Positions 19,960 to 57,565 of a stretch of 64,000 nucleotides of DNA are shown piece by piece. The first letter of the stretch is position 1; each line of letters begins with the position of its first letter. This stretch comes from Actinoalloteichus fjordicus (GTDB taxonomy: Bacteria; Actinomycetota; Actinomycetes; Mycobacteriales; Pseudonocardiaceae). Below the pieces are notes generated by a model, which did not search any database, was not told where the DNA came from, and saw nothing but the letters and a program-made list of their open reading frames with translations. The stretch lies in assembly GCF_001941625.1 (NCBI RefSeq), contig NZ_CP016076.1, positions 3,596,001 to 3,660,000 of the forward strand, given 5' to 3'. A program made the position numbers and the translations under genes.

Positions 19960-19962
19960 TCC

Positions 19963-30178: not shown

Positions 30179-30652
30179 CGTTTCGGACGCTCGGTTTCGG
30201 CTCGGCACGGATGGACGGGATCGGGCGTGGTCAGCGTAGAAGACGGCGGTTTCGTGGTGCCCCACACACGGGCTCAGATCGATGTCGCTCGTCTGGCTGA
30301 TCTGACGCAAGGTCGCGTGAATTGCGTGGTGAGCGTCGACCGGGTCGAGCCCGGTGACGCCGAGGACGGTGAGCTGTGGGTCTCATTCGGCAAGCAGCGC
30401 GTAGGCGTGGTCGACCCAGGTGAGGCGAGCGCGTTGTTCGCCGGTGAATGCGGGGCGGCGGCCTCCGCCGCGTTGATCGGCGCGACGGGCGGCGACCTCT
30501 GGAGATATCCGCAGCCACAGCGCTCGGGTAGGACGCGGCCCGGCCAGAGCTGTGAGGGCGTTCAGCCAGTCGACGGCGACCTCGGTAGGGGCGCGGTGCT
30601 GGCGTAGTAGGGCGTCGATCGCGTAGGAGGCCATCGTGTGGATGCCGCTATG
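30179..30652 (-). pseudogene. Fragment of a dTMP-kinase-like P-loop kinase with an internal stop
   Basis: The minus frame opens without a P-loop and reads MASYAIDALLRQHRAPTEVA, then RPTRALWLRISPEVAARRAD, FTGEQRARLTWVDHAYALLAE. It is stopped by TGA (30383-30385), then continues in the same frame DPQLTVLGVTGLDPVDAHHA. The lid-region pattern (LWLRISPEVAARRADQRGG) and the C-terminal helix match thymidylate-kinase-like enzymes. The N-terminal nucleotide-binding half is gone and an in-frame TGA bounds the fragment at 30653. It is non-functional as seen. Confidence 0.6.
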
Positions 30653-35673: not shown

Positions 35674-36720
35674 GTGGATCTCCACGTGATCGAGACGAGC
35701 ATGCTGCCCCGTGCCGCGCACGCCTACCTGATGCTGCTGCCCGACGCCCCCCGATTCGGAGCCGTGTTCTCCGAGATCCAGGACGAGTCCGGTCCATTCG
35801 ACTGCGCCGCCGCAGCCCTGAACTGGCTGACGCACGACTACGACACCCTCCGCGAAGCACTCGACTCGGCCACACACCACCGCGACGACCTGGCCTGGCA
35901 ACTGGCCGAGACGCTGTGGCCGCTGTTCCTGCATCACCGCCACCTGGTCTCGCCCACCGTGTTCGCCGACGGCGCCGCCGCAGCCGCCCGCACCGCCCAC
36001 ACCACCGACGACCCCGAACACACCCGTCGACACCGACTCGGCCAGACCAATCTCCTGCTCAAGGAGATCGCGGCCCGGATGAAACTCGGCGACATCGACA
36101 CCGCCGAGACCCTCCTACCGGCGGCGACCGCACTCGCCGGCCAGCTCGACTCCCCGATGCTCCAAGCCACCGCTCAGGCCCAACACGGCCAACTCGCCCG
36201 CGCACACGGCAGCCTCACCGAAGCACTGGACTTCCTCCGCGCCGCTCTACGACTGGAAGAACAGGGCGGGACCCCGCGCGGCGCTTCCATGCGACACCGG
36301 GTGCTCTCCCTCATCCTGCGCGACCTCTGCCTCTACGACCAGGCAGAAATCCACCTCTTCCTCGCCCGCGACCTCCTAGCCGCCACCGGCGACGCCAAAG
36401 ACCACGCGCAGATCAGCGAGCCTCTCGGAACCCTCTACTCCCTCACCGGCCGACACGACGAAGCGGTGACCGAGCTGACCCGAGCCCTCACCGTCTTCGG
36501 AGAACTCGGCAGCCACTACCAAGCCACCTGCCACCACCAGCTCGCCCTCGCACTCGAACGCCGCGCCGCCACAACTCTCCACACCGACCCGCCACCTGAC
36601 GACACCGAGACCAATCACGACAAGACCACCCAGGACCGACACCGCGCCGCCCTCCACCGCAGCCGAGCCCGAGAACTCACCCCGGCGCCCTCCGCCGCAG
36701 GCACGGCACCCACCACCTGA
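35674..36720 (+). CDS. Tetratricopeptide-repeat protein (SARP/AfsR-type sensor-like, no DNA-binding domain)
   Basis: A 348-residue, mostly helical protein with repeats such as AETLLPAATALAGQLDSPML, EALDFLRAALRLEEQGG and DEAVTELTRALTVFGELGSH. These resemble the C-terminal TPR part of actinobacterial regulators (AfsR, SARP/LAL type). No helix-turn-helix or ATPase is present, so it cannot itself regulate transcription. The C-terminal tail is Pro/Ala-rich. The GTG at 35674 has GGAGAAG upstream. It follows the P450 pair on the same strand and may be co-transcribed. Confidence 0.75.
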   Translation: MDLHVIETSMLPRAAHAYLMLLPDAPRFGAVFSEIQDESGPFDCAAAALNWLTHDYDTLREALDSATHHRDDLAWQLAETLWPLFLHHRHLVSPTVFADGAAAAARTAHTTDDPEHTRRHRLGQTNLLLKEIAARMKLGDIDTAETLLPAATALAGQLDSPMLQATAQAQHGQLARAHGSLTEALDFLRAALRLEEQGGTPRGASMRHRVLSLILRDLCLYDQAEIHLFLARDLLAATGDAKDHAQISEPLGTLYSLTGRHDEAVTELTRALTVFGELGSHYQATCHHQLALALERRAATTLHTDPPPDDTETNHDKTTQDRHRAALHRSRARELTPAPSAAGTAPTT

Positions 36721-38854: not shown

Positions 38855-39229
38855 GGGCACGAGTCTTCCACCTCAGCTCGCCCCAGCAGCCACCCGCACC
38901 GTCGAGGGTCGGCGTTAGTTCGGCGGAAGTTCGGCGTTCCGGGGGCGTTGAGGCAGTTCCCACCTGTCGGGATTGCCGGAATACTGTGAAACCTAGGCAG
39001 CTCGAAATTCTCGAATGTGGTTGGGAGAACGTCGACGATGACAGATGATCGCGAATGCACGTCAATTGCATCGTCGGCCATGAGCCGACCGCGATCGAGA
39101 GGATCTTTCCGCTTGGCGCAATCGTGCTCAACGAACCTACACACAACGTCGGTATTTGCGCCGCGGTCGAACCAGCTTGACCGTGCCCGAATTTTTCGCT
39201 CGAGGACTACGATCTTGCGGGAATGCGAC
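38855..39229. other. Divergent intergenic region
   Basis: No gene. It carries promoters in both directions. It is slightly AT-richer from about 38980, with no clear operator palindrome seen. Confidence 0.4.
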
Positions 39230-39640
39230 ATGCCCGACGATACTGGCAGGGCTGGCGACGCAGGCAACCCCGAAATGCCCGTCGCCAGCCCTGTCGTCCA
39301 CAGTACCAGCAATTCCTTTGAGCGCCCGCTGCTCGGCTATCTGCGCGTCTCATTTTCCGCGTCTAGTCGTGAAGTCGAGAATTTGCGACGAAAGGTAGCA
39401 GATTTCGCACAAAGGGAAGCGTTTACCCTCGTGCGAGTCTATGTAGATCGCGACCGAACTCAATCGGCAGGCTTCTCGTCACTGGTCAAGGCTCTGAGCG
39501 ACGGTGAGGCCCACCATGTCGTCGTACCCGCTCTCCAGCACCTCGCATTCATGGCTAGTGCGCGGCTTCTCATGAAAGAAATGTTGGAGATTCAGACCGG
39601 CGCACACGTGCTGGTGATGTATTCGGGTTGCAGTGATTAG
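39230..39640 (+). CDS. Small protein with serine-recombinase N-terminal-like domain
   Basis: About 136 residues. After a Ser/Pro-rich leader it has the resolvase catalytic-fold signature: LLGYLRVSFSASSREVENLR with the nucleophile-position Ser, RVYVDRDRTQSAGFSSLVKA and VVVPALQHLAF. There is no C-terminal DNA-binding domain (typical resolvases need it), so it is probably not a working recombinase. ATG 39230 follows GCGGGA. Small one-domain proteins like this occur upstream of actinobacterial biosynthesis loci; the role is unknown. It lies 195 bases before the next plus gene. Confidence 0.6.
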   Translation: MPDDTGRAGDAGNPEMPVASPVVHSTSNSFERPLLGYLRVSFSASSREVENLRRKVADFAQREAFTLVRVYVDRDRTQSAGFSSLVKALSDGEAHHVVVPALQHLAFMASARLLMKEMLEIQTGAHVLVMYSGCSD

Positions 39641-39835
39641 TCTTGACAACTGTTCTGAAAGCAAGGCCAGGCGTGTGAGTCGAGGGCGCATCGGCGGCGG
39701 GAATGACGGATCAAGTCGCTGTCCCGGCGTTTTCACCGATCGCAGCCGACGGCTTGGACCTATCGGCACGTCGAAAGCTCATCGAAATAATTCCGACCCC
39801 GCCACCCTATTCCCAACAGCAAGGAGCCGCGACAG

Positions 39836-40273
39836 ATGGTTTCCCCTCTCGTGCTTGCTGACGTGACCCAGCCCCTGAAAGCCGTACCGGTCACAAGCCC
39901 GATGCGACCCAGTCGACTCGTTCTCGCTGACGGTGTGTCCGCTGTGACGATGCCGTCAGACTTGGCCGTGCAGGTCGACGCCTTCCTCACCGTGCGCCTC
40001 ATGCGGGCGCCGATTCTGCGCGCCGACGGCCATCCGGAGTGCACGCTGCTCACGGGGCCACCGACGCCACTAAGGCCCTCGACTCAGGAAGAGCTGATTC
40101 GCTTGGGCGTCCGGCTTGTTCCGCCGGGTACCCCGCTCACCCTGCCCGCCGCCCAGATTCGCACTGGAGAACCGCGATGGTGGGGCGACACTGCCCTCAA
40201 GGGATCACTCCCACCGCAGAGCATCGTGATCGCGGCCTGCCGGTCGATCGCCGATTCCTCGAAGGAATGGTGA
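39836..40273 (+). CDS. Hypothetical protein, 145 aa
   Basis: ATG 39836 follows AAGGAG. The sequence is beta-rich with VRLMRAPILRADGHPECTLL and GVRLVPPGTPLTLPAAQIRT. I do not recognise a family. It overlaps the next gene by 4-7 bases (GTGA/ATGGTGA), so it is the first gene of a coupled chain. Possibly a small accessory for the QueC-like enzyme. Confidence 0.55.
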   Translation: MVSPLVLADVTQPLKAVPVTSPMRPSRLVLADGVSAVTMPSDLAVQVDAFLTVRLMRAPILRADGHPECTLLTGPPTPLRPSTQEELIRLGVRLVPPGTPLTLPAAQIRTGEPRWWGDTALKGSLPPQSIVIAACRSIADSSKEW

Positions 40274-40959
40274 CGGTGCCCGCTCCGCACCCCAAACGCC
40301 ATCCACCTCGGCATGCAGTGCTCGTCACCTCCGGTGGATTGAACTCCACGGTGTTGGCACATTGGCTTGCCGCCTGCCATTCCCGCGTGACGATGTTGTC
40401 CTTCGACTACGGCCGACCGCAACGAGTCGAGCTGCACCATGCCGCAGAGATCGCCGAGCTGTTGGCCGTTGAGCACCACGTCGTCGACCTGACCAGTCTG
40501 GCGACAGTGCTGCGCGGGTCGGCGTCGGCCGGCGATGCCATCACCGTTCCCGACGGGCACAACACCGTCATGCCCAACCGGACCCCGATCATGCTCGACA
40601 TCGCCATCGGCCTTGCCGTGGTGAAGCAGGCGGACGCCGTGGCCTACGGCGCACACAGCGTGTCCCCCACGGTCTCCCCGGACTGTCGGCAGGTCTTCGT
40701 CGATTTCACGGACGTCGCACGACGGAACAACAAGGGATTCCTCGCTGACGACTTCGCCGTCCTGGCCCCGTTCTTGCACCAGAGCAAGGTCGACATCGTT
40801 CGGCTTGGCCTCTCACTTGGCGTTCCCTTCGATAAGACCTGGTCTTGTCATCGAGAAGGGACGGTCCACTGCGGGACATGCGCAACCTGCGTGGAGCGTG
40901 TCGAGGCGTTTGTCGCCGCCGACGTCGCCGACCCGACGCGCTACGCGGTGAGGCAGTAA
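40270..40959 (+). CDS. QueC-like ATP-dependent enzyme (7-cyano-7-deazaguanine synthase family)
   Basis: About 229 residues. The PP-loop motif is SGGLNST (21-27), where the family has SGGxDS; here the acidic residue is Asn25. SFDYGRPQRVELHH, VPDGHNTVMPNRTPIMLD and TWSCHREGTVHCGTCATC (C193, C201, C204, C207, the zinc site) match QueC. QueC adenylates 7-carboxy-7-deazaguanine and makes the nitrile with ammonia. No QueD, QueE or FolE is nearby, so this copy more likely uses another carboxylate, or makes an amide, as in QueC-like proteins of defence and natural-product loci. GTG 40270 is coupled to the gene before; ATG 40267 is possible. Confidence 0.85.
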   Translation: MTVPAPHPKRHPPRHAVLVTSGGLNSTVLAHWLAACHSRVTMLSFDYGRPQRVELHHAAEIAELLAVEHHVVDLTSLATVLRGSASAGDAITVPDGHNTVMPNRTPIMLDIAIGLAVVKQADAVAYGAHSVSPTVSPDCRQVFVDFTDVARRNNKGFLADDFAVLAPFLHQSKVDIVRLGLSLGVPFDKTWSCHREGTVHCGTCATCVERVEAFVAADVADPTRYAVRQ

Positions 40960-41068
40960 TGCGGGTGGGACCGGCGCCTGCCAGTTTTCTACAGACTGGG
41001 GTATTGGGTTCGACCAATCGGACGATCCGATAACAAGATTCCATTGATACGGAACTCTGGACACGGGG

Positions 41069-42934
41069 ATGCGCATGATTCTAAGCACTTCCTACAACAA
41101 GAAGACGGATATAAAGCGAGATCTTCTAGCGGGATTCTCGGCTATCGACCATGCGACATCGGAAGAATTGGACCCGGAAGTCGTCGAGGATCTTGTCGTC
41201 CGACTGATCCTGCGCCTGTCGGTCCTTTGCTCACTCCACGGCCCGCAGGGAGTTCCGCAGTTACACGCGGCGATCCGAGATGTCGATGGGCTCTTCGATT
41301 CAGTGTGTCTCGCCGTCAATGGGCAGGACCCGAAACGGCGGACGACAGCCGTGATCCCTCGTGAACTACAACAAGAGCTCGTGCATTTTTCCCGGATCGT
41401 CGATGTCGGCACCGCTGGTTTCGGCACACCGGTTCCAGACACCAAGCGCCTGCGGAACTCGCACGCGATTCCGGTATCATTGAAGGTACTGGCTGAACTC
41501 ATGGTTGTTGTGCGCGGGCGGCTCGCCCAACGAAGCGCCGCAGTCGTCACCCCGGCTCTGAGTCGGCGCCCGGAGACGTGCCGATTCGATATCGGCAGCG
41601 ACGTGTTGGCTCAGTTCCCGGAGAACACGACAGACCACGTGCTGATCATTGAGGGTGATCGGCGGCGGACCCGAAGGAAGATAGGTTTCCTTTTCAGCCA
41701 GCTGTTGGTCTACCTGCCACCCCGTGACGTCTTCGCTGCGGTAGCGGCATACCTGGTGGAGGCGAGACTGGCCACCAAACTCCGATTGCGGCTGCTGGAG
41801 TGCCCCGAACCGGAGCGGTTGCAAGTTCATGCTTGGTCGTACGACGCCGAGACGGTCCCTCGTGAGGCGTTCGCCGCTGCGTCGACGCTGCTGCCGATCA
41901 GCCGGGTCTTCCACGTTTTCGGACCAGATCCCACCACGGTGCCGCTGGACCTGCCCGGGACGCGGGTAGGTGTTCGCGGCGGAGAAGTGTTTATCGAGGG
42001 GGATCTGGATCACGCAGCGACCGTGCGCATCGTCGCGCCGAGCGCGATCAGTCGGTCAACCGTCGAGGAACTGGTTGAGAAGGCCTTACAGACGTGGGGG
42101 CAGCAAGACGTCGGCGAGAACGCCGTTCTGTCCGTCGAGTGCGGTCACATCCATCTCGACCGGCAGCTCGACATCGACCAGGTCGCCGGTGCGCGGATCG
42201 GTGCCGCTCTGCTCCGCTCGATCGCGGATGCACAGGCGGCGGAACCCGTCCTGGCACCGATGATGGACGACGACCACGTGATGGTGGCACTGCGACCGAC
42301 GGAATATCGCGACTTTCTACGGAATCATTTTCCCACCACGCCGTTCAGCCTGATTCCGGAGTCGAGCCCGATCGTCAGAGCTATCACCTGCGTGTTGTTC
42401 CACCGACTCAGAACTGGCCCCCACCAGGCGGAACTCGCTACGCGTGGCGGCAACCTGTTCCTGCGACTGCCCGATGGCTCGTTCTGCGAACTGTTCGAGT
42501 CCTTCGACGGCGAGCCGGTGTCAGGTTGTGTCCTGTTCGAGACGGCTCTGTTGGTGTACCGGACAGCACCCGCCGTGTTCGACGACTATGCGATGAACCG
42601 CTTCCCCACCGCCGAGGACGTGCACACCTTGGCCTGCCGAGTTCTCGATGGTGACGACCATCATGACGCGAAGGTTGCCGAGCTTGCCCGGCTGTACTCG
42701 CCGTTTGCCGAGGTGACGGATCCGCAGAAGGCCCTCGATTCGGGGTTTGACGAGATCGTGTCCGAGGTCCTCGACACCGTCTCCACTCATGCAGCGCACC
42801 TCAACGTCCTAGAGGACTACTACGAGGTCCAACAGGACAAGGTACGGCAACTACTTGCCGTGCTTGAGCTCCCGTTCATCGTCCGCACCTTGTTCTTCAA
42901 CACCCAGACCGGCCGGATACATGCGGCGGGCTGA
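41069..42934 (+). CDS. Large unknown protein, 621 aa, in the QueC-like locus
   Basis: No family is recognised. Start ATG 41069 (MRMILSTSYNKKTD) or ATG 41075, which sits better behind the GGGG. Segments: DLVVRLILRLSVLCSLHG near 45, VSLKVLAELMVVVRGRLAQR near 140, then FLFSQLLVYLPPRDVFAAVA (about 215), and near the C-terminus FLRLPDGSFCELFESFDGEP, VQQDKVRQLLAVLELPF. Soluble, no signal peptide. The stop overlaps the SDR start (14 bases), so it is probably translated with it. Its size and central position suggest a key enzyme or scaffold for the locus, but nothing catalytic can be named. Confidence 0.6.
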   Translation: MRMILSTSYNKKTDIKRDLLAGFSAIDHATSEELDPEVVEDLVVRLILRLSVLCSLHGPQGVPQLHAAIRDVDGLFDSVCLAVNGQDPKRRTTAVIPRELQQELVHFSRIVDVGTAGFGTPVPDTKRLRNSHAIPVSLKVLAELMVVVRGRLAQRSAAVVTPALSRRPETCRFDIGSDVLAQFPENTTDHVLIIEGDRRRTRRKIGFLFSQLLVYLPPRDVFAAVAAYLVEARLATKLRLRLLECPEPERLQVHAWSYDAETVPREAFAAASTLLPISRVFHVFGPDPTTVPLDLPGTRVGVRGGEVFIEGDLDHAATVRIVAPSAISRSTVEELVEKALQTWGQQDVGENAVLSVECGHIHLDRQLDIDQVAGARIGAALLRSIADAQAAEPVLAPMMDDDHVMVALRPTEYRDFLRNHFPTTPFSLIPESSPIVRAITCVLFHRLRTGPHQAELATRGGNLFLRLPDGSFCELFESFDGEPVSGCVLFETALLVYRTAPAVFDDYAMNRFPTAEDVHTLACRVLDGDDHHDAKVAELARLYSPFAEVTDPQKALDSGFDEIVSEVLDTVSTHAAHLNVLEDYYEVQQDKVRQLLAVLELPFIVRTLFFNTQTGRIHAAG

Positions 42935-43604
42935 GCGTGCCCGCGTGCTGGTGACCGGGGCGACCGGCGTCGTCGGGCGGGCAATCCTGTCGACCTTATG
43001 GACGCGGACATCGCTGTCCACCACCACCGTCGGTAGGCGGGCACCGTCGGGGATGCGCGAGAAGGACGAGCACCACCATGTCGACTTAGCCGATTCGAAT
43101 GAAGTCGAGCAGGTGTGCGTGTTGATCGGTCGGGCGCCAGCGGCCTTCCAGGCGGTCGTGTTCGCCGCCGGGGTGGACAGCAGGCAGGGGGCGATCGATG
43201 TGGACCCGGCGGTGTTCGACCAGGTTATGCGGGTCAACTGCCGCTCCCATCTGCAGATTCTGCGGGCGATCTTGAGCCGCCGCGAAATGGACTCGCCCCC
43301 GCTTCCTGTGATCGCGGTGTCCAGCGACGTGGTGTCCGACCGGCAAGCCAGAACCGCCGTCTACGCAGCGAGTAAGGCGGCCCTCGAGGAGGCACTGCGT
43401 CACGCCGCAGCCGATGCGGCTCTGCACGTGGTCCTGGTCCGGCTCGCTGCCCTGGAAGTTCCGATGGCGGAGATCGTGGAACAGGGCTCTGTGCACCGCC
43501 TATTGCGACCGCCACCGACGGCGGCCCGGCTGCTGGCGACGCGGATCGCCGAATCACTGCTCGCACCACCGGACACGGGTTCTTCTGTGGAGGTATGGAC
43601 ATGA
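42921..43604 (+). CDS. Short-chain dehydrogenase/reductase (SDR)
   Basis: About 227 residues. Nucleotide-binding TGATGVVGRAI at the N-terminus, VVFAAGVDSR (the NAG equivalent), IAVSSDVVS for the catalytic Ser, and YAASKAALEEAL for the catalytic Y-x-x-x-K. An NAD(P)-dependent oxidoreductase, probably acting on a hydroxyl or keto group of the pathway intermediate. ATG 42921 lies inside the end of the 621-aa gene, and its own stop overlaps the next ATG (ATGA). That places it in the same coupled transcript. Confidence 0.88.
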   Translation: MRRAERARVLVTGATGVVGRAILSTLWTRTSLSTTTVGRRAPSGMREKDEHHHVDLADSNEVEQVCVLIGRAPAAFQAVVFAAGVDSRQGAIDVDPAVFDQVMRVNCRSHLQILRAILSRREMDSPPLPVIAVSSDVVSDRQARTAVYAASKAALEEALRHAAADAALHVVLVRLAALEVPMAEIVEQGSVHRLLRPPPTAARLLATRIAESLLAPPDTGSSVEVWT

Positions 43605-44866
43605 TGAACACCCGCTTCACCCTGTCCAGCGGTGAGGAGACCGATAGTTTCACCTTGGCTCGAGAAGCACTGCGGGCCAATGGAATCACCCTCCCCAAGG
43701 CGCCGACCAGGATCGCGGTGACCGGAGACGATCAGCACGTCACAGCCGCGATCACACTCCACCTGTTGAATAGTGATCACCAGGTCGTCCTGGTCCCGAC
43801 GTCCCTTGCGGGTGGGAGAAGCTTGCCGCGCGGGTGTGGCTACGGGCTGGTGGCGCTTGGGCGGACGGTGCGGGAAGTCTGCCCGGCCTCGCGCATCGGA
43901 ACCTTCGGCGGTGGATGGCGGGTGGCCCTCTACAGCTCGGGAAGCACACGCGCGGCGGCCACATTCGGATTCGACGGACGGCAACTCGACACACTGGCGG
44001 CCTGGTACGCCCACGCCTACGGTGTCACGGCTGCGAGTGTGATCGTCACGAGTCTCCCCGTTTCATACAACTTCACCTTCGTGGCCGGACTCATCCTCGC
44101 TGCGGCCTCCGGCGCGGCGCTGCGACTGGTTGGCGCTGCGGACGAGGTGCTTGCTGAGGCCGCGTGCCTCGCCGTCCGAGCAGACCGGGTCGTCGTCCTG
44201 GCGAATCCCGTAACACTCGACAGCGCGAAAACCGACAGTCGCCTGCCGGACCATGTCCTTGTCGACTCCGGTGGTGCGCCACTGAGCACGCCTGGTCTCC
44301 GCGAACTCCGCCACGCTGTCGCGGACGTGCGTGAGGGATACGGGCTCACCGAAACGGGATCGCTGACCCACTTCGACCTCGAGGGAAGCGGAGATTCACT
44401 CGGCACGGTGGGGACCTCCCAGCCTGGCGTGCGCTGTTGGATCGAGGCTGTCGACGACAAACCCAGGATCGCGCTCGAAACACCGGTGATAGGCACCGAG
44501 GTGGCGCCCGACGGCACAACAGGCCGCCCGAGGACGAGCATGCTCACCGGTGATCTCGGCACCATCGGCCCGGTGGGCCGATTGCGGCTGCTCGGCCGGG
44601 CCGACGACCACCGGATCAACGGATTCTGGCCGCGGGACACCCTTGACATGGTCGCCGAGGTGACCGGCGCTCGGTGCGCACTCGTCCTCCATCCGAACCC
44701 CGACCGCGTACGCGTCAAGGTGCTCGGCGAGCTCAGTGCTGGCGACGTGTCACGGATTCGGTCCGTGGTGGCGCACGAGTTGGCGCTCTCCCCGGCAGGG
44801 ATCACCGTCGAAGGGGAAGACGACACGTCGCTGCACTCCCGCAAGCTCTCCCGGCGGACCCCATGA
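43601..44866 (+). CDS. ANL-superfamily AMP-forming ligase (acyl-adenylating enzyme), short form
   Basis: About 421 residues, shorter than the usual 500-550. P-loop YSSGSTRAA, motif EGYGLTETGS (the YGxTE core), TGDLG with the ATP-ribose Asp, hinge LLGRADDHRIN, and the C-terminal catalytic-lysine region (HSRKLSRR). It should adenylate a carboxylate, then pass it to CoA, a carrier or an amine; no carrier protein is seen beside it. ATG 43601 is preferred (GGAGG eight bases upstream, ATGA overlap with the SDR). It overlaps the next start in the same way. The N-terminal part is compact, so a loop subdomain may be missing. Confidence 0.85.
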   Translation: MMNTRFTLSSGEETDSFTLAREALRANGITLPKAPTRIAVTGDDQHVTAAITLHLLNSDHQVVLVPTSLAGGRSLPRGCGYGLVALGRTVREVCPASRIGTFGGGWRVALYSSGSTRAAATFGFDGRQLDTLAAWYAHAYGVTAASVIVTSLPVSYNFTFVAGLILAAASGAALRLVGAADEVLAEAACLAVRADRVVVLANPVTLDSAKTDSRLPDHVLVDSGGAPLSTPGLRELRHAVADVREGYGLTETGSLTHFDLEGSGDSLGTVGTSQPGVRCWIEAVDDKPRIALETPVIGTEVAPDGTTGRPRTSMLTGDLGTIGPVGRLRLLGRADDHRINGFWPRDTLDMVAEVTGARCALVLHPNPDRVRVKVLGELSAGDVSRIRSVVAHELALSPAGITVEGEDDTSLHSRKLSRRTP

Positions 44867-45223
44867 CCGCCGGGGCCAGCCAGCTGCTATCCAACGTGGT
44901 TGCGGCGGTCGTGGAACTCGACACTGGTGCTCGCGTCGAGTCGGTGCCCGTCCCTGCATCCGCCCCACGGCCAGCGTGTACGGGCGCTGGCCGGTATGCC
45001 CACGTAGGTCGTCTCTGGGTCGACGGTGGGCGCCGACGTCCCGGCTGGCGCGGTGTCGGTTTGGGCAGGCCGGTTCACCAAGCTCCTGCACGTCGAATCT
45101 GCCTCGGCTGACGCCCATCTGCAATGGATCCAGTCCGCTGCACACGGCGGCTGCGGTACTCAAGAACCACCGCTGCGCACCTTGATGCGATCGCCAGCCA
45201 ATCCGACTATGAGGAGAACATAA
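44863..45223 (+). pseudogene. Small gene between ligase and radical SAM, frameshifted
   Basis: ATG 44863 overlaps the ligase stop (ATGA) and begins MTAGASQLLSNVVAAVVELD, then RVESVPVPASAPRPACTG. That frame loses coding character after RYAHV near 45005. A one-base shift gives SGSTVGADVPAGAVSVWAGR, FTKLLHVESASADAHLQWI, whose TAA (45221-45223) overlaps the radical SAM ATG (TAATG). The clean couplings at both ends argue that one gene of about 120 residues belongs here, disrupted or mis-sequenced around 45008-45020. Function unknown; a small carrier or accessory protein is possible. Confidence 0.55.
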
Positions 45224-46170
45224 TGACAACCGAACTATGCCGGTTCAGACATCCGGAGCAGGGCGCGATGGTGATCTGGGAACTCACCCGATACTGCAAC
45301 CTCGCCTGCCTGCACTGCTGCACTGATTCGGACCCACAGGTCAGCAGGGAGCGAGACCTGGCACTGCCCGAGATCCGCCGTGCGATCGAGGAGATGCTGG
45401 CGGTAGGCGTGGTCGAGTTCTTCTTTTCGGGCGGCGAGCCGATGAGCAGACCGGACTTTCCCGAAATCGTCGAGGCTGTGGACTCGGAGCGGGCCGATGT
45501 GTTCGTGAACACCAACGGGTACCACCTGACGCCAGCACTCGCACAAAGGCTAGCAGGCACAGCCATGCGAAGGGTTACCGTCAGCATCGACGGAGCGGAC
45601 CGTGCTACCCACGCGGTGCTCCGTGGTAAGCCCGCCTCCTACGATCGGGCCGTCGACGCCGTCAGTGCGGCACTCGGGGCGGGTCTCGCCGTACGCGTCT
45701 CCCATGTCGTCGCAGCGCCGAATGTGGCTGGCGTCGAGGAGTTCGTGAGTCGGATGGTCGAGGTCGGCGTCGACAATATCGTGGTCAACACCGTGTTCCC
45801 CGCAGGTCGCGCCGTCCGCAACCCTCACCTGCATCTGACCAGCGAGCAGCTTGTCGACGTCGAGCGGCGGCTGGTTGACCTGCGCGAGAAGTGCCGCAAG
45901 GACGGCGTCGAACTGGACTTCAGCATGGGCGAACCAGACAAGGAAGATGTCCCGGCCGGGTGCCCGGCCGGGGACCAGGTCCTCTACGTCGCCCCAGACG
46001 GATCTGTGTCGGGGTGCTCATGGTTGGCCAAGCTGGACCCGGCCCGCTTCACCGTCGGCAACTTGCACCGCACCTCGTTCGCCGCGATGTCCGGTGATTT
46101 GGCTGGGCAGAACCTGCTGTTCGCCGAGCACCGCTCGTGTCCGCTGCCCACCCTGGCCCAGCGACGATGA
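45223..46170 (+). CDS. Radical SAM enzyme with SPASM-like C-terminus
   Basis: A 315-residue protein. The [4Fe-4S] motif C25-x3-C29-x2-C32 (CNLACLHC) is followed by FFFSGGEPMSRPDF (GGE motif) and VFVNTNGYHLT. The C-terminal CPAGDQVLYVAPDG, SVSGCSWL and RSCPLP place several cysteines as in truncated SPASM proteins, suggesting a second cluster. GAGGAGA precedes ATG 45223. It is coupled to the gene before (TAATG) and after (ATGA). Such enzymes modify peptides or small substrates by radical chemistry. It is not a QueE by size and motif, so preQ0 synthesis is not its job here. Confidence 0.9.
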   Translation: MTTELCRFRHPEQGAMVIWELTRYCNLACLHCCTDSDPQVSRERDLALPEIRRAIEEMLAVGVVEFFFSGGEPMSRPDFPEIVEAVDSERADVFVNTNGYHLTPALAQRLAGTAMRRVTVSIDGADRATHAVLRGKPASYDRAVDAVSAALGAGLAVRVSHVVAAPNVAGVEEFVSRMVEVGVDNIVVNTVFPAGRAVRNPHLHLTSEQLVDVERRLVDLREKCRKDGVELDFSMGEPDKEDVPAGCPAGDQVLYVAPDGSVSGCSWLAKLDPARFTVGNLHRTSFAAMSGDLAGQNLLFAEHRSCPLPTLAQRR

Positions 46171-46808
46171 TCGCGCGCCCCTCGGCGACGTGGCGAGCCA
46201 AAGCACGCACCGCCTTGTTCGGTATCGAAGCCCCGGCACCGCAGGTGGTTCTGTCTCCGTTCACCACGGTGCTGGAGGCAGTTGCCCCTGCCTCGTCGCC
46301 GGCCCCGGGCTGGTGGCCCCGCGCCGATGCGCACGGAGTCACAGTCGTTCGGGTTCCACAGGGCAGCGCGTGCCTCGACGCGGTTCTCTGCCTGGAACCA
46401 GGGACGTCGGTGACCTTCGTCGGAGCGTGCGGAACCCTGCGGCAGGGCGGACCGTCGGTGGTCGGGGCAATGGTCGAAGCGGACCGTGCAGTGGCCTACG
46501 ACGGCACCACCGGGCGCAGGACATGGGCCACGGCTCCGATCGCTCCGACCGTCGCGGTCGCCACCGCCCGCTCCCTTGCGGACTCCAGCGCCGGGCACCA
46601 TCGGTTGGATGCCGACTGTGTGGACCTGGAAACAGCATGGGTGTTGGCTGGCGCCGCGGTCGCTGGTTGCCGGGCCCGCGCCTTGTTGGCGATCACCGAT
46701 GGCAACCGGGAGGGCGCCGTGTTCGAGAGCGACTTCGGCGTGGTCACCGAACATCTACTGCGCGTTGCGCGACTCGCGCTGCTTCCACACAGTGGTTCTG
46801 GGACCTGA
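46167..46808 (+). CDS. Nucleoside phosphorylase / nucleosidase-like protein
   Basis: About 213 residues of the PNP/UDP phosphorylase superfamily: VTFVGACGTLRQGGPSVVGA (the G-x-x-G ribose/phosphate strand), VDLETAWVLAGAAVAGCRAR with the Met/Glu-type substrate loop, and ARALLAITDGNREG (the C-terminal catalytic region). It is shorter than typical family members, so the N-terminal part may be reduced. It would split or form an N-glycosidic bond. It overlaps the radical SAM gene by four bases and is last before a 270-base gap. In a locus with a QueC-like enzyme this suggests handling of a nucleoside-like compound. Confidence 0.75.
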   Translation: MIARPSATWRAKARTALFGIEAPAPQVVLSPFTTVLEAVAPASSPAPGWWPRADAHGVTVVRVPQGSACLDAVLCLEPGTSVTFVGACGTLRQGGPSVVGAMVEADRAVAYDGTTGRRTWATAPIAPTVAVATARSLADSSAGHHRLDADCVDLETAWVLAGAAVAGCRARALLAITDGNREGAVFESDFGVVTEHLLRVARLALLPHSGSGT

Positions 46809-47080
46809 GGCTGGTTTGCCCGGTCACCCGGATGGGCGTCGTTCTTCGCGCCGAGGTGCTCAACGGCGACATTCGAGACTGACTCTGGACGTCCGACCAC
46901 TACGGGCCTTGGTCAAGCACAATCGGGCCGCGCTGCTCCAACCCGATCGGATCTGACCTGGCCGTGCCGGACGCCGTGGCTGCTGATAACAGCAGCCCGG
47001 GTGACTGGCAGAATTTCCCTGCGCGACCTCTTGGCCAAGCCTGCCTTGGGCCTCACCCGACACGCAAAGGCATTAACAGG

Positions 47081-48853
47081 ATGAACACCGTCACACCACT
47101 CGTGCAGACCCTTGGGCAGCGACTGCGAGACGCCATCGTCGCGGCGCTGCCTGACGCCGCAGACGTCTCCGAGGTAGACCCGCTCATCCGACCGTCCGAC
47201 CGGGCAGACTACCAGGCCAATGGCGTGTTGCCGCTGGCCAAGCGCTTGGGGGTACCGCCCCGCGACCTCGCGGCCAAGGTTGCCACGTTGCTCGAGAATG
47301 ACGACCTGATCGTCTCCTGCGAGGCGTCCGGACCCGGGTTCCTCAACATCACCCTGGCGGACAGCGCGATCCTGGGCCAGCTTGTCGCCCGCTCGGGTGC
47401 GGAGCGGCTCGGGGTTGGTCTCCACGGCACCGGCAAGGCGACGGTGGTCGACTATTCCCAGCCGAACATCGCCAAGGAGATGCATGTCGGACACTTGCGC
47501 AGCACCATCATCGGCGACGCCGTAGCGCGAATCCTGGAATTCCTCGGCACCAAAGTCATCCGGCAGAACCACCTCGGTGACTGGGGTACCCAGTTCGGAA
47601 TGCTGATCCAGCACCAGCTGGAAGATGAGGAGGCGAACGGGTTCCGCGCTGCGTCGTCCGGGGTCGAGTCGATCTCCCGACTCAACGCGCTTTACCGCGC
47701 CGCCAGGGCTCGGTTTGACGGCGACCCCGAGTTCGCCGACCGCAGCAGGCGCCGAGTGGTTGAGTTGCAGGCGGGCGACGAGCGGACTCTGGCCGGGTGG
47801 CAGGAGATCGTCCGCGAGTCGAAGGTTTACTTCAACGAGGTCTACGACCGGCTGGACGTATTGCTGACCGACGACGATGCGGTCGGGGAGAGCTTCTACA
47901 ACCCCTTCCTCAGCGACGTCGTCACGGACATGGAGCAGCGCGGGATCGCGGTGCGCAGCGACGGCGCGCTGTGCGTCTTCTTCGACGACATCCGCAGCCC
48001 GGACGACAAACCGGTCCCCCTGATCATCCAGAAGTCCGACGGCGGGTTCGGCTACGCCACCACCGACCTGGCGGCGATCCGTTATCGGGTAGGCACCCTC
48101 GACGCGGATCGGGTCCTTTACGTGGTGGACTCGCGACAGGCGCTGCACTTCCGCATGGTCTTCGAAGCAGCCCGCCGGGCCGGGTACCTCACCGACGGTG
48201 TGGAGGCGGTGCACGTCTCCTTCGGTTCGGTGCTGGGCAAGGACGGCAAGCCGTTCAAGACACGCGCCGGCGAGACAGTCCGACTGATCTCCCTGCTGGA
48301 CGAGGCGGTCACCCACGCCAAGGCGACCGTCCAGGAACGCGACTCCGGCCTCGACGCCGAGGCGCTGGACCAGCTGTCCCGCGAGATCGGGATCGGCGCG
48401 GTGAAGTACGCGGACCTGTCCACCAGCCGCACCAGGGACTACGTGTTCGACATCGACCGGATGGTGTCGCTCAACGGCAACACCGGCGTGTACCTCCAGT
48501 ACGCCCACGCCCGCATCCGGTCGCTGCTCCGCCGGGGCGAGGCTCAGCACAGCGCGTCCGCGGTCCTGGACACCGATGTGGCGTTGGAACCCGCCGAGCG
48601 AGCTCTCCTCATCCACCTCGACGAGTTGAGCAGCGTCCTGGACACGGTCGTAGAGACCTACGAACCGCACCGACTGTGTGCGTACCTGTACGCCCTCGCC
48701 CAGGCGTTCACCACCTTCTACGAGGCATGCCCCGTGTTGCGGGCACCGAACGACACCATCAGGGCCAACCGTCTCGCCATCGCCCAAGCGACCGGCGACA
48801 CCCTGAAACTAGGGTTGGGCCTGCTCGGGATAGCCGCACCGGACCGCCTCTGA
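47081..48853 (+). CDS. argS: Arginyl-tRNA synthetase
   Basis: A 590-residue class I synthetase. The N-terminal additional domain is followed by HVGH (135-138, the HIGH motif) in KEMHVGHLRSTIIGDAV, then the arginine site (QNHLGDWGTQFGML), and FGSVLGKDGKPFKTR for the KMSKS-equivalent region. The DALR anticodon-binding domain closes the protein (YLYALAQAFTTFYEACPV). It charges tRNA-Arg. Cells need only one ArgRS, normally not beside such genes, so this is probably a second copy serving the locus, either as a self-protecting resistant enzyme or as a source of arginyl-tRNA. I cannot see the other copy from this window. Confidence 0.92.
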   Translation: MNTVTPLVQTLGQRLRDAIVAALPDAADVSEVDPLIRPSDRADYQANGVLPLAKRLGVPPRDLAAKVATLLENDDLIVSCEASGPGFLNITLADSAILGQLVARSGAERLGVGLHGTGKATVVDYSQPNIAKEMHVGHLRSTIIGDAVARILEFLGTKVIRQNHLGDWGTQFGMLIQHQLEDEEANGFRAASSGVESISRLNALYRAARARFDGDPEFADRSRRRVVELQAGDERTLAGWQEIVRESKVYFNEVYDRLDVLLTDDDAVGESFYNPFLSDVVTDMEQRGIAVRSDGALCVFFDDIRSPDDKPVPLIIQKSDGGFGYATTDLAAIRYRVGTLDADRVLYVVDSRQALHFRMVFEAARRAGYLTDGVEAVHVSFGSVLGKDGKPFKTRAGETVRLISLLDEAVTHAKATVQERDSGLDAEALDQLSREIGIGAVKYADLSTSRTRDYVFDIDRMVSLNGNTGVYLQYAHARIRSLLRRGEAQHSASAVLDTDVALEPAERALLIHLDELSSVLDTVVETYEPHRLCAYLYALAQAFTTFYEACPVLRAPNDTIRANRLAIAQATGDTLKLGLGLLGIAAPDRL

Positions 48854-53838: not shown

Positions 53839-54273
53839 GTGTATGCCCCGCTTCAACTTCAAGCGCTTCGAAACATCCGCAGCCTGATCAAGGGCGAGTG
53901 GGTGCCGGACATCCTCGTCGCCCTGCGCGGTGAGTCGCAGCACTTCAGCGAACTACGGAGCCGGGTCAACAGTCTCCAGGTCGCCCGGCGCTCCACCGGT
54001 TCCGGCGTGTTGCACGACGGGATCCTGTCCCGGACCCTGCAGCGGATGGAACACGACGGGCTGGTCGAACGCCGGGCGCAGACCGGGGTGTTCCCGCCGT
54101 CGGTCGAGTACCGCCTGACACCGCTCGGCGAGGACCTGATCGTCGTCATGCAGCCGCTCGCCGCGTGGATCGCGCACCGGACCGCAGCGAACGCTGCTCC
54201 GACTCACTCGGATCAGCCTTGCGTCCTGTCACCCGCCTGCCATGAGCAGCACGGTGACCGCCCCTGCGAGTAA
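53839..54273 (+). CDS. HxlR-family winged-helix regulator
   Basis: About 144 residues. The HxlR layout is clear: IRSLIKGEWVPDILVALRGE, HFSELRSRV, SGVLHDGILSRTLQRMEHDG, LVERRAQTG and VEYRLTPLGEDLIVVMQPLA, followed by a Cys-containing tail. GTG 53839 has GAAGGTGA just before it. The single winged helix without a ligand domain is normal. Its end overlaps the minus prepilin-peptidase gene by 45 bases. Likely a local repressor or activator. Confidence 0.8.
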   Translation: MYAPLQLQALRNIRSLIKGEWVPDILVALRGESQHFSELRSRVNSLQVARRSTGSGVLHDGILSRTLQRMEHDGLVERRAQTGVFPPSVEYRLTPLGEDLIVVMQPLAAWIAHRTAANAAPTHSDQPCVLSPACHEQHGDRPCE

Positions 54274-54873
54274 GGCAGGTCCCAGCGGCATCGCCGACTG
54301 CGGGGAGGCACCACGCAGCAGGATCAGGACGGCGCCCTGGACGGTGGCGAAGACGAGCCCCAGCACGGTTCCGGCCAGCAGCACCGGCCATCCTGCCCAG
54401 CCCATCACGAGGCCGAGGAGACCGGCCAGCCGGACGTCACCTGCTCCCAGCCCTCCTCGGGCGCACAAGGCCACGGCCAGATACCCGCTGAACAGGACGA
54501 CCATCCCCGACACTGCGCGCAAGAACGACGTCAGGTCATCACTGACGAGTGCGGCGAGACCGAGCAGCAGAACGTGGACCGGGTAGGCGGGCAGCAGGAG
54601 TGCCGTCGGCAGGCGTCGCTCCCGCCAGTCGATCACGGCTAACGGCATCCCGACGGCGACCAGGGCGCTGTAGGCGAGCAACTCGGGTCTGACCCCGACG
54701 CGCCAGGCCAACAGTCCGAACAGCAGGGCCGTCCCGACGGCCAGCGGCCCGGTCGAGCCGTGACGCCGTGTCGGCGGCCGGGTGTTCGAGAACCGTCGTA
54801 TCACCGCGCTGCCGCCCACTCCGCAGGCGGCGCCGAGCAGCGTCCAGCCACAGAGGCCCCACCACATCAGCAC
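54229..54873 (-). CDS. tadV: Prepilin peptidase (A24-type, TadV-like)
   Basis: A 214-residue membrane protein with six or seven hydrophobic segments. The two catalytic aspartates are D82 in VIDWRERRLP and D146 in GLGAGDVR. It cleaves leaders of Flp and pseudopilin precursors and would process the pilins encoded at 61655-62845. The start is GTG 54873, with TGATCTCGTGC nearby. It is transcribed away from the pilus operon and overlaps the HxlR gene at its end. It lacks the N-terminal methylase Cys motif, typical of Tad forms. Confidence 0.85.
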   Translation of the reverse strand: MLMWWGLCGWTLLGAACGVGGSAVIRRFSNTRPPTRRHGSTGPLAVGTALLFGLLAWRVGVRPELLAYSALVAVGMPLAVIDWRERRLPTALLLPAYPVHVLLLGLAALVSDDLTSFLRAVSGMVVLFSGYLAVALCARGGLGAGDVRLAGLLGLVMGWAGWPVLLAGTVLGLVFATVQGAVLILLRGASPQSAMPLGPALLAGAVTVLLMAGG

Positions 54874-55132
54874 GAGATCAATTCCTTTCGATCATACTTT
54901 CCATCACGCACTGAACAAAAGAAAAAGATCCTCTCGGGCACTTGTTCAACAATGCAGAGATCAGTGATCGACGCATTCCGTGACCAGTCACCGATTGTGT
55001 ACTCCGTTCGGGTGATTGTCGAGGCTGGTGCCCATACGCGCATCAATACGCGTTCTTACTCACCTTGCGGTGAGTGCCAGGTCGGGCGGTAGAGATATGC
55101 CATCCCCGATACCCCCGGATCTGGAGGTCAGA

Positions 55133-55726
55133 GTGAAGCCCCGATTCGTCCCCGATTCACGGAGCTGGGCCGCCCTGGCGGTGGCGGTGTTATCCGTCGC
55201 CACCGCGACCGCCTGCACCACAACTGATTCCGCTGATTCGCCGGCGCGATCCTCGACGGTCCCGAACACGTCACCGGAGTCCTCTGCCACGAGCAGCCCG
55301 TCGCCTTCTCCTCACGACGACGCTGAAGCAGCGGCGGTGGCTGCGTATGAAGGAATGTGGGCTGCCTTCGTCGCCGCGGGAACGACGGCGCACTGGCAGG
55401 ACCCTGCCCTGGCCACGCACGCCACCGGCCAGGCATTGTCGACCTTGACCCGCGGCCTCTACGCCGATGCCTACAACGGCCTGGTCACCCGAGGAGAACC
55501 GATCCTCGACCCGACGGTCTCCTCAGCCGAACCCGCAGGCGATCCGACGACGGTGATCGTGACCGACTGTGGTGACGGGTCGAACTGGCTGAAGTACACC
55601 GCCGAGGGGCAGCTGGCCGACGACGAACCCGGTGGACGACGGCGGATCAACGCGATCGTCGAGCGCCAGCCGAACCACGACTGGATGGTCACCGACTTCG
55701 GCGTTCACGAGGTGGGAACATGCTGA
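55133..55726 (+). CDS. Secreted lipoprotein of the Tad locus
   Basis: About 197 residues. The N-terminal signal (MKPRFVPDSRSWAALAVAVL, SVATATAC) ends in a lipobox with Cys, so it is predicted to be lipid-anchored outside the membrane. A Ser/Pro-rich linker (PESSATSSPSPSPHDD) precedes a globular domain (AYEGMWAAFVAAGTTAHWQD; VVTDCGDGSNWLKYTAE) related to small NTF2-like lipoproteins. GTG 55133 has GGAGG. The stop overlaps the next start (ATGCTGA). Likely a pilus-associated or assembly lipoprotein. Confidence 0.8.
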   Translation: MKPRFVPDSRSWAALAVAVLSVATATACTTTDSADSPARSSTVPNTSPESSATSSPSPSPHDDAEAAAVAAYEGMWAAFVAAGTTAHWQDPALATHATGQALSTLTRGLYADAYNGLVTRGEPILDPTVSSAEPAGDPTTVIVTDCGDGSNWLKYTAEGQLADDEPGGRRRINAIVERQPNHDWMVTDFGVHEVGTC

Positions 55727-56754
55727 ACCTGACCCGCCTCGGTGTGACCGTCGGTTCCGCTGCCCTCTTGCTGCTCACCGGCGCGGCGCACACCTCCGCC
55801 GCTGACGGCTGGCGTGACGTCGACTGCTGGCAGATCCCCCGGCCCGGCTGCGATCTCGGTGCCGGGTCAGACGGACACGGCCCGGCTCCCGGCATCCCCT
55901 CGCCCGGATCGCCCCGGCCTCCGGCCCAGGACAGACAGGGCGGCGGCGAGCAGGCGCCCGCACCCGGTGGCGACGGCGAGGACGACGGACTGGCCGAGTG
56001 CGAGTACGTCCGTAGCGACTACCAGTCACCCCCGGGTGCGATCCCGGCCTCGGTCTTCCCGTCGGCGTCCCCGACGCTTCCGGCGGTGGTGCCGGCTGCA
56101 CACCGTTCGCGGGCCGCTGTGTCGAGCCGGGCTCCGGACTCTGCGGTTCCGGTGCAGGACGGGGAGGAGCCGGGTGCCTGGTATGTGTGGCAGTGCTCCA
56201 CGGAGGGCTACCGCGACGCCCTGTACCGGCCGCCCGTGTGGATTCCCGACGGCGAGGAACCAGGCGCTGAGCTGTTGCCCTCACCGGAGGAGTTGGCCGC
56301 GCTGGCGCGGGACCAGCTGCGGCTGCCGCAGCCGAGCATCGCGACGTCCCCGACCGGGGACCAGCTCGTGCACCTGCCGACGTGGCTGTGGCTGGAGGAG
56401 ACCAGCTGGGGTGCGCGGTCGGCGACGGCGTCGGTTCCCGGCGTGTCGGTCACCGCGACAGCCCGCCCGGTGTCGACGACCTGGTCCACCGGGGACGGAG
56501 CTTCGGTGACCTGCACCGGCCCCGGCACCCCGTTCCCCGCCGACGGCGATCCCGAAGCCCCCTCACCGGACTGCGGGCACGTCTACCGCAGCTCCTCCGA
56601 CCACCAGCCCGACCGGGAATTCCCCCTGACCGCGACCGTGCGGTGGGAGATCACCTGGTCCGGCGGCGGCGCCGGAGGGACGTTCCCCGACCTGACGACC
56701 GAGGCGACCACCACGGTGCGCGTCGCCGAGTCCCAGGCCCTCAACACCGGCTGA
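55720..56754 (+). CDS. Secreted protein with signal peptide (Tad locus)
   Basis: 344 residues. A signal peptide (MLNLTRLGVTVGSAALLLLT, GAAHTSA) is followed by a Pro/Gly-rich low-complexity stretch, then a domain with WVWQ-like aromatic pairs (AWYVWQCSTEGYRDAL; LPTWLWLEETSWGARSATAS) and a beta-rich C-terminus (TWSTGDGASVTCTGPGTP; EFPLTATVRWEITWSGGG). Four or more Cys outside suggest disulfides. No known family. ATG 55720 overlaps the lipoprotein stop. Extracellular, probably a surface factor linked to the pilus. Confidence 0.75.
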   Translation: MLNLTRLGVTVGSAALLLLTGAAHTSAADGWRDVDCWQIPRPGCDLGAGSDGHGPAPGIPSPGSPRPPAQDRQGGGEQAPAPGGDGEDDGLAECEYVRSDYQSPPGAIPASVFPSASPTLPAVVPAAHRSRAAVSSRAPDSAVPVQDGEEPGAWYVWQCSTEGYRDALYRPPVWIPDGEEPGAELLPSPEELAALARDQLRLPQPSIATSPTGDQLVHLPTWLWLEETSWGARSATASVPGVSVTATARPVSTTWSTGDGASVTCTGPGTPFPADGDPEAPSPDCGHVYRSSSDHQPDREFPLTATVRWEITWSGGGAGGTFPDLTTEATTTVRVAESQALNTG

Positions 56755-56881
56755 GCGACCTTTCGCCGGTGGTCGCTTCCCCGAGCTGGCTTCAACTTCT
56801 CGGTTCTCTCCTCTACTCGTTCTCGTCGTCGCTGCTCGGGCGGACGACGGGTCCCTCACTCCACTCCTCTGGAGGTAGTTC

Positions 56882-57565
56882 GTGAACGTCACGACGCAAG
56901 AATCGGCCTCGACGGCCGCAGCATCGGCGGAGCACTGGGCCAGTGGAGGGAAGGGGCCGCGATCTCGGCCGCCGGGCAGAAGTCGACGGCGTGTGCCGCA
57001 TCTGGCTGTGGGTGGTGTGCTGGTCCTGGCGTGCGCGGCCGGTTCGGTGTGGATGTGGACCACGGCCGGCGAGCGGCGTGCGGTGCTCGCGGTGGCGCGT
57101 CCGGTGTCGGTGGGCCATGTGCTTACGGCCGCCGACCTGCGCGAGGTACAAGTCGGGGCGGACCCCGATCTTCCGGTGGTCGAGGCCGTCGCCGTCGACG
57201 GCGTCCTCGGCCGTCCGATGGGCACCAGCCTCCCGGCGGGTGCTCTGCTCCACCGCGACGCGGTGGGCACCGTCCTGGTGCCTGCGGCGGATCGAGCCAT
57301 GACGGCGGTGGCGGTGCCCGACGGGCGCGTTCCCCCGGAGGTCGCCGCCGGGGCGGCGGTGTCCCTGGTCGCAGCCCCCGACGAGTCGGCTCTTGAAGGC
57401 GTCGGGGCCGCCGAGACGTGGGCGGCGACGGTCGTCGGCGTCACCACACGGGAGACGACGTCGACGACGGTCCTCAGCGTCGAACTGGCGTCCGATGACG
57501 CACGGGAGGTCGCGGCCGTGGCCGACGGGCAGATCTCGGTGGTCGTCCTGGGCGGTGATCGGTGA
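56882..57565 (+). CDS. RcpC/CpaB-like pilus assembly protein with SAF domain
   Basis: A 227-residue protein. One N-terminal membrane anchor (VGGVLVLACAAGSVWMW) and a SAF/CpaB domain: VLAVARPVSVGHVLTAADL, LGRPMGTSLPAGALLHRD, DRAMTAVAVPDGRVPPEVAA. It corresponds to RcpC, which links the secretion channel to the cell wall. GTG 56882 follows GGAGGTAGTTC. It overlaps the next gene (GTGATG / TGA). Confidence 0.82.
   Translation: MNVTTQESASTAAASAEHWASGGKGPRSRPPGRSRRRVPHLAVGGVLVLACAAGSVWMWTTAGERRAVLAVARPVSVGHVLTAADLREVQVGADPDLPVVEAVAVDGVLGRPMGTSLPAGALLHRDAVGTVLVPAADRAMTAVAVPDGRVPPEVAAGAAVSLVAAPDESALEGVGAAETWAATVVGVTTRETTSTTVLSVELASDDAREVAAVADGQISVVVLGGDR

Follow-up and report, generated by a model that had tools for sequence, protein, structure and literature searches.

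The ten-gene locus at positions 39230-48853 of the window (the whole 64,000-nucleotide stretch analysed here, 3,596,001-3,660,000 of the single-contig, 7.12-Mb genome of Actinoalloteichus fjordicus) is of composite origin. Its genes, here named A to J (Table 1), have at least three kinds of relatives. B and C, the latter encoding a degenerate homologue of QueC, are the decayed remains of a cassette that pairs QueC with a reverse transcriptase (RT) in related genomes, and the other genes of that cassette are gone here. D, followed by genes for a short-chain dehydrogenase/reductase (SDR; E) and an ANL-superfamily enzyme (F), belongs to a gene module conserved in other actinomycetes, and J is a second arginyl-tRNA synthetase (ArgRS) gene. 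We therefore read the locus as a patchwork on a decayed integrative island and not as one pathway, with D-E-F as an amino-acid-activating unit, and give this full reading about an even chance of being right.

The initial annotation had taken the ten genes as one cluster whose members should stay together in relatives. A single pathway is rejected because QueC sits with RT, FGE, glycosyltransferase (GT) and exonuclease genes, because D-F occurs without QueC, H, I or ArgRS within the 7-22 kb available at each of eight other D loci, and because ArgRS has other neighbours. The cluster idea thus fails for QueC and ArgRS and for the ten genes as a whole, whose parts are scattered in relatives, holds for D with its SDR and ANL partners, and could go either way for the H/I pair.

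D-E-F, a rare conserved module

A pattern scan of genome contigs identified eight further D loci, with 7-22 kb of sequence each, in Nocardiopsis, four Actinomadura or Actinoallomurus, Spongiactinospora, a Catenulispora metagenome-assembled genome and Sinosporangium (a 92-residue match). D is absent from the 296 other genomes of the host family, and a 394-genome sample of the class contains only the A. fjordicus gene and one doubtful match (E 6.8e-4). On plasmids, D and I have no match and F has one weak match. F follows D in six of the eight loci, the exceptions being L010, which lies at a contig edge, and L014, which has a short match only. Four loci have a relative of E, placed either behind D or in the interval from D to F (L009, L010, where the contig end cuts the gene, L011 and L015). 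An APH-type kinase is encoded near D in six loci, and a large, divergently encoded protein with no Pfam match in four. The initial annotation had proposed looking for a conserved neighbourhood of D with the QueC-like and radical SAM genes; neither has a match in any of the eight loci, nor do I, ArgRS or, by tblastn, G.

D-E-F is therefore a real but rare conserved module and, in our reading, a transferable operon. Some observations weigh against drawing its borders so sharply. E is not constant, being missing from L008, L012 and L013, with an unrelated SDR gene preceding D in L008. The D loci span just 7-22 kb, so more distant partners would be missed. In the window itself, the overlaps joining E, F and G and joining H and I could mean a single operon.

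F passes the PF00501 threshold (40.7 bits against a cut-off of 29.9), its EGYGLTET motif and C-terminal lysine (K415) are invariant in seven sequences, and the best PDB matches of its profile are to malonyl-CoA synthetase. Its ATP loop, however, reads SSGSTRAAA (STRAAA) where six of six relatives have TGxPR. Judged from this substitution, the A. fjordicus F may be weak or dead, and because the loop is altered it is in doubt whether this copy of D-E-F still works.

D-E-F would have arrived, as a rare transferable operon, into or beside the B-QueC remnant. D is proposed to be a divergent class I aminoacyl-tRNA synthetase (aaRS)-like ligase of the HUP fold. It would activate an amino acid by adenylation and then pass it on, either to the partner enzymes or to a small acceptor, by analogy with MshC in mycothiol synthesis. 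F would adenylate a second carboxylate and E would reduce or oxidise the product. In the relatives, the APH-type kinase may modify the product or protect the producer.

A predicted class I aaRS-like domain in D

No credible similarity was found when D family members were compared one by one with Pfam and with PDB sequences. The C-terminal 295 residues, aligned from nine loci, were modelled alone since Foldseek was uninformative with the full-length model. The domain model has a pLDDT of 91.6 and a pTM of 0.91. Among the 50 PDB rows listed by Foldseek, all 11 with a probability of at least 0.7 are class I aaRSs (ArgRS, CysRS and LysRS-I), with probabilities up to 0.97 and a best E of 0.0069. 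In the viral library, four of the five rows with a probability of at least 0.7 are class I aaRSs and the fifth is without a name. A GHIHL.R motif, invariant in an alignment of eight sequences, is located after strand 1, where HIGH is expected, and may be a variant of it.

Against this assignment, the full-length model (pLDDT 72.7) has no Foldseek match. For the domain, nothing in the PDB reaches E <= 0.001, rmsd values are mostly 7-22 and no aaRS row has a query-normalised TM-score above 0.46; the viral match without a name is the sole one with E <= 0.001. Profile-profile comparison of D with ArgRS (hhalign, thin profiles) gave a probability of 0.2%, and a control comparison with F gave 0.1%. 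KMSKS is a class I aaRS motif, and none of the lysines of D is invariant across the eight aligned sequences, so a KMSK-like motif is not visible. These weak E-values, high rmsd values and missing sequence signals would all fit a new Rossmann-like or other fold that is not aaRS-like, which we consider a serious candidate falling somewhat short of even probability. What speaks against such a fold is that class I aaRSs come top among the confident named matches in two libraries and that the HIGH-like loop is in the expected place. On balance we lean slightly towards D being class I aaRS-like, in which case it may act as a small-molecule ligase.

Class I aaRS-like enzymes outside ribosomal synthesis include MshC, the cyclodipeptide synthases and a MetRS paralogue (PMC2922099). 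D would share with them a predicted HUP domain working outside translation and adjoining tailoring genes; acyl-CoA ligases adjoin cyclodipeptide synthase genes in some actinomycetes (PMC2922099). It differs in its 326-residue N-terminal part, its lack of an invariant lysine, its SDR and short ANL partners, and in showing no credible sequence similarity to ArgRS or to PDB chains.

Loss of QueC motifs in gene C

The protein encoded by C passes PF06508 (147.8 bits against a cut-off of 22), falls under the TIGR00364 cut-off (134.6 against 150.3) and is 66% identical to its orthologue in the same-genus genome G076. It was placed in an alignment and tree of 32 sequences, from which a set of 28 orthologues was taken; L086-L088, being distant or degenerate, were excluded from this set. 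The pyrophosphate motif of C reads SGGLNST, with Asn replacing the Asp of SGGxDS that is present in all 28 orthologues, and YPDCR has become SPDCR, the lost Tyr being likewise invariant in the 28. GQRH is also changed, and eight residues are deleted relative to the G076 orthologue. In all, C deviates at 12 of the 69 columns invariant in the 28 orthologues. When each orthologue was left out in turn, 27 showed 0-3 deviations and L085 showed 7; L086, outside the set, has 13. The terminal branch of C is 3.7 times that of its same-genus sister (0.338 against 0.092). Given the many changes in L085 and L086, QueC decay may have recurred.

According to PMC13279940, SGGxDS binds pyrophosphate in QueC, and 7-carboxy-7-deazaguanine (CDG) is recognised by a pair of residues, Tyr and Asp. 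From the motif, the SPD site of C would correspond to Y129/D131 of the Bacillus subtilis enzyme. C has thus lost residues needed for QueC chemistry, and the ligase role that the initial annotation gave it is unlikely.

C is the sole full QueC match in the genome. A second match, of 57 positions at C1:5890332, lies in a 657-residue frame and is just above the family cut-off (E 2.1e-5). No QueD-family gene (PF01242) was found in this genome, compared with at least one in each of 26 other genomes tested, all of which carry a complete or nearly complete cassette. Searching with a QueE-like protein of G076 gave no match in this genome, but recovered the gene in G076 itself and a 48% identical relative in G189. 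An RT query likewise found nothing in this genome, in a search run without a positive control genome. FolE is encoded at C1:344874, away from the locus, and is also present in G076 and G189. The initial annotation was right, therefore, that QueD and QueE are missing, a result that these searches extend to the whole genome, and right about FolE for the locus but not for the genome. It had also excluded ordinary preQ0 synthesis, and we reject preQ0 synthesis too, as QueD and QueE-like genes were not found in the genome.

Although C is still an open frame and retains its Cys cluster, we regard it as a relic because of the motif losses, the long terminal branch and the failure to find CDG-supply genes. 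B is 58.6% identical to the gene preceding QueC in G076 (L089), 33% identical to its counterpart in L090 and 26-28% identical to those in L091 and L092, and has no match in L093 or L094.

QueC-related ligases include Cap9 of type IV CBASS and QatC (PMC13279940). C shares with these the QueC domain and the Cys cluster, and differs in the lost Asp of SGGxDS and the lost Tyr of YPD. A PADLOC scan of the ten proteins matched only C (QueC and weak QatC models) and H (viperin-type radical SAM models). No model for the partners of type IV CBASS or QatABCD (a CD-NTase and a TGT-like protein; QatA, QatB and QatD) matched, in a search limited to these ten proteins. A CBASS or Qat defence system was rejected, since only QueC/QatC and viperin-type models matched.

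The intact QueC-RT cassette in related genomes

QueC (E <= 1e-20) is encoded in 42 of the 297 genomes of the host family, A. fjordicus included. With queries from L089 and L091, we surveyed the best 35 of the 49 other QueC places listed. The surrounding sequence covered was about 20 kb per place, except that two lying at contig ends allowed 8.8 and 13 kb. The cassette order is B, QueC, RT, FGE, DUF6884, GT2, radical SAM, phosphoribosyltransferase (PRT), GT1, 5'-3' exonuclease and PIG-L, and is constant wherever the genes are present. RT, FGE, DUF6884 and GT2 each match in 29 of the 35 loci, radical SAM, PRT and GT1 in 28 (one GT1 match being weak), the exonuclease and PIG-L in 26, and B in 25 (two matches being weak and several kilobases away). 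The cassette is found in L089, L091-L093, L095-L110, L115, L117, L118 and L120, with B unmatched by the query in some, and in part in L090, L094, L111-L114 and L119, where genes are missing or the locus is cut. L116, L121, L122 and L123, which have a distant QueC, lack it, and L111 and L114 have no RT match. Pfam confirms the gene names in L089; B has no family.

What the window has in common with the island carrying this cassette is B and C, a TPR protein gene, the element backbone and the relic of a kinase gene. The window has no match for RT, DUF6884, GT2, PRT, GT1, the exonuclease or PIG-L, and for the cassette FGE and radical SAM proteins it encodes only relatives of 33-34% identity. Backbone genes matching 54-62 kb of the window are also present in 16 of the 35 loci.

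The island in G189 (L130:7851-19714) continues with genes for QueD, a radical SAM protein that we take to be QueE-like, a thymidylate-kinase-like protein, a second, distant QueC, and a nucleoside deoxyribosyltransferase. These are joined by xylose-isomerase-like, epimerase-HAD fusion and inositol-phosphatase-like genes and by an intact counterpart of the kinase pseudogene of the window. Pfam gives only Radical_SAM and Fer4_12 for the QueE-like protein. This gene set suggests synthesis of a modified deoxynucleotide, and the cassette looks like a 7-deazaguanine and reverse-transcriptase system. QueC, QueD, the QueE-like protein, the deoxyribosyltransferase, the thymidylate-kinase-like protein and the glycosyltransferases would make a modified 7-deazaguanine (deoxy)nucleotide, to be used by the RT, the 5'-3' exonuclease and the FGE-fold protein, perhaps for anti-phage defence.

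On the cassette, PADLOC matched RT to reverse-transcriptase models (best E 2.5e-34), the radical SAM protein to viperin models and the DUF6884 protein to PDC-M57A (2e-6), PDC presumably standing for phage-defence candidate; these matches make a defence role worth testing. We rejected a reading of the RT-FGE pair as a diversity-generating retroelement, since no template/variable repeat pair was seen when five cassettes were each compared with themselves: three showed only diffuse matches of 58-64% and two showed none. On a plasmid of Embleya sp. NBC_00888 (L005), a variant of the system encodes QueC, together with proteins that we take to be QueD, QueE-like and FolE-like, beside relatives of RT, FGE, DUF6884, GT1 and the exonuclease. 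Text searches of the open-licence literature found, among the papers listed, none describing the QueC-RT gene combination, and a term search of the main text of PMC7159879, on related conflict systems, returned no QueC, PIG-L or exonuclease. The island appears to be undescribed in the literature searched.

H, I and the accessory ArgRS

In the 297 family genomes, only three proteins besides H itself match it at E <= 1e-30, and these are 32-33% identical. Its best families are TIGR04133 and MftC, and its SPASM score of 21.2 bits is just under the Pfam cut-off of 21.5. I fails the PNP_UDP_1 threshold (19.4 bits against 25.1), has no NCBIfam match and, besides itself, finds three weak matches in the 394 class genomes, none better than E 7.1e-5. 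The four-base overlap of the two genes suggests that H and I are a pair, probably a radical SAM enzyme with a nucleosidase-like partner.

HpnH/HpnG and MqnE/MqnB are pairs of a radical SAM enzyme and a purine nucleoside phosphorylase (PNP)-like enzyme. H and I could act in the same manner, with H adding 5'-deoxyadenosine and I removing adenine to leave a ribosyl group. The overlap and the presence of HpnH among the weaker matches of H (5.4e-18) fit this, but with other families ranking best for H, and I below the PNP cut-off, we think it rather unlikely.

The genome has two ArgRS genes, 49.9% identical to each other, and the same-genus genomes G043 and G076 have one match each, which bears out the initial annotation of J as a second copy. 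J contains HVGH and GKDGKPFKTR, the latter presumably the KMSK-equivalent region, and is probably active, as far as its motifs predict. Its relatives are extra ArgRS copies found in two of 14 other genomes searched, G001 (60% identity) and G003 (57%), and a copy in Nocardia farcinica (58%). In G003 (L052:6710-11681) and N. farcinica (L133:2690-7761), the copy is the last gene of a conserved four-gene unit, after a PLP decarboxylase, a methyltransferase and a nucleotidyltransferase; between the two units these are 63%, 55% and 49% identical, respectively, and the ArgRSs 70%. In G001, a 95-residue nucleotidyltransferase match, a remnant, lies right before the ArgRS gene. J is of the same ArgRS group, but the three partner genes were not found in the window.

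The third-position GC content (GC3) of J (0.87) is near that of three reference genes of the window (0.88-0.91), unlike its neighbours (0.73-0.79 for B-F, H and I; 0.62 for A; 0.65 for G), which suggests that J and these genes do not share a history. We propose that J is a mobile-looking accessory ArgRS, brought in separately, which might serve as a resistance gene or for arginyl supply, both being possible. In the eight D loci, neither the H/I pair nor ArgRS has a conserved link to D-E-F, and ArgRS as a fixed partner of D was rejected, with no match in any of the eight. A literature search for ArgRS in clusters with Actinomadura found none.

Alternative explanations for the locus

The whole stretch might be cargo that is decaying on an integrative element, in which no pathway works and only the ArgRS is still active. 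Catalytic residues are lost in both QueC and F, A and G look broken and the island kinase is a pseudogene; the low GC3 of A-I would also fit. That GC3 may equally mean transfer, and two genes immediately upstream (37062-38860) have similar values (0.78-0.80). D, moreover, retains its GHIHL and DDDH motifs and a 621-residue open frame, and the motifs of E and H are retained as well. We consider general decay possible but doubtful.

Two further alternatives keep a role for QueC, and both appear improbable. One is a single pathway, in which the QueC-like enzyme would ligate an acid, such as a 7-deazapurine, the radical SAM, ANL and PNP-like proteins would each contribute a step, and ArgRS would be donor or resistance gene. 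The common strand, the short overlaps and the second ArgRS favour it. With the QueC motifs lost, the genome-wide searches for QueD and QueE-like genes negative and the parts scattered in relatives, it is very unlikely, and the version with QueC as ligase is rejected on the motif loss, the long branch and the scattered relatives. The other is that QueC has changed function and serves D-F as an altered-substrate enzyme or scaffold, to which we assign a similarly small, marginally lower probability. C is an open frame, has its Cys cluster and stands right before D, and QatC shows that the CDG-recognition residues can be swapped (PMC13279940). QatC, however, keeps the SGGxDS that is lost here, the degenerate orthologues L086 (13 changes) and L085 (7) are in loci where no D or F was found (L115 and L114, respectively), and QueC is absent from all eight D loci.

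Locus layout and the surrounding element

All ten open reading frames were confirmed on the plus strand, together with the short overlaps noted by the initial annotation: 4-7 bases between B and C, 14 between D and E, and four each between E and F, F and G, and H and I. Gaps of 111 and 272 bases separate G from H and I from J. G may be broken or non-coding.

Table 1. Genes of the locus and related features of the window
Feature	Position	Strand	Description
A	39230..39640	+	Resolvase N-terminal domain fragment, 136 aa; PF00239 E 1.8e-5, 95/145 profile positions; DNA-binding part absent; GC3 0.62
B	39836..40273	+	145 aa; no Pfam match; QueC-RT cassette relic
C	40267..40959	+	Degenerate QueC, QueC-RT cassette relic; PF06508 E 4.1e-43
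D	41069..42934	+	621 aa; no Pfam match above cut-off; C-terminal domain (about residues 327-621) predicted class I aaRS-like by fold
E	42921..43604	+	SDR; PF00106 E 1.1e-14; TGxxGxxG and YxxxK present
F	43595..44866 (start 43595 or 43601)	+	Short ANL-superfamily adenylating enzyme; PF00501 E 1.7e-10; ATP loop altered
G	44863..45111	+	82-aa ORF, doubtful coding; no family match; codon-position GC 0.78/0.65/0.65
H	45223..46170	+	Radical SAM; PF04055 E 1.1e-25; CxxxCxxC and GGEP present; weak SPASM-like tail
I	46167..46808	+	Nucleoside phosphorylase-like; 4-base overlap with H; PF01048 E 7.8e-4, below cut-off
J	47081..48853	+	Accessory arginyl-tRNA synthetase; ArgRS Pfam E 2.9e-115; TIGR00456 485 bits against cut-off 262
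Kinase-APH pseudogene, island relic	29249..30646	-	84.6% identical over 468 aligned positions to L130:18005-19714; N-terminal 101 residues gone; one in-frame stop
TPR protein, common with G076 island	35674..36717	+	80.5% identical over 348 aa to L129:14181-15224, adjoining QueE-like gene; TPR_12 3.1e-10
Element backbone	54232..61599	+	TadA-like 77%, most other genes 42-69% identical to L090, L091, L104, L107 (islands with intact cassette)

The backbone genes are what we take to be Tad/prepilin-like. Elsewhere in the window, an integrase-like gene (23734-25503) matches two open reading frames of the G076 island region at 29-43% identity, and a tRNA-Tyr gene (9996-10087, minus strand) is a possible integration site for the element. 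The genes at 17187-23040 presumably encode a type I restriction-modification system. The product of a minus-strand gene at 37062-38009 combines a helix-turn-helix with an FGE/SUMF1 domain and shares 34% identity with the cassette FGE across 133 residues.

Significance

Inside integrative elements, proximity and a common strand say little in favour of a pathway. Should D prove to be a class I aaRS-like ligase, the small group of such enzymes known outside translation would gain a branch that is distant in sequence, and D would point to a class of small molecules missed by cluster finders based on non-ribosomal peptide synthetases and polyketide synthases (NRPS/PKS). Only tentatively do we entertain both larger propositions at once, that D represents a new class I aaRS-like ligase family whose members work alongside a short ANL enzyme, a kinase and an SDR to make an amino-acid-derived metabolite, and that the QueC relic stems from an undescribed island building and using a modified 7-deazaguanine (deoxy)nucleotide. 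The QueC-RT island itself is a more striking result than the cluster at the locus: strongly conserved in the host family, it links 7-deazaguanine chemistry with reverse transcription.

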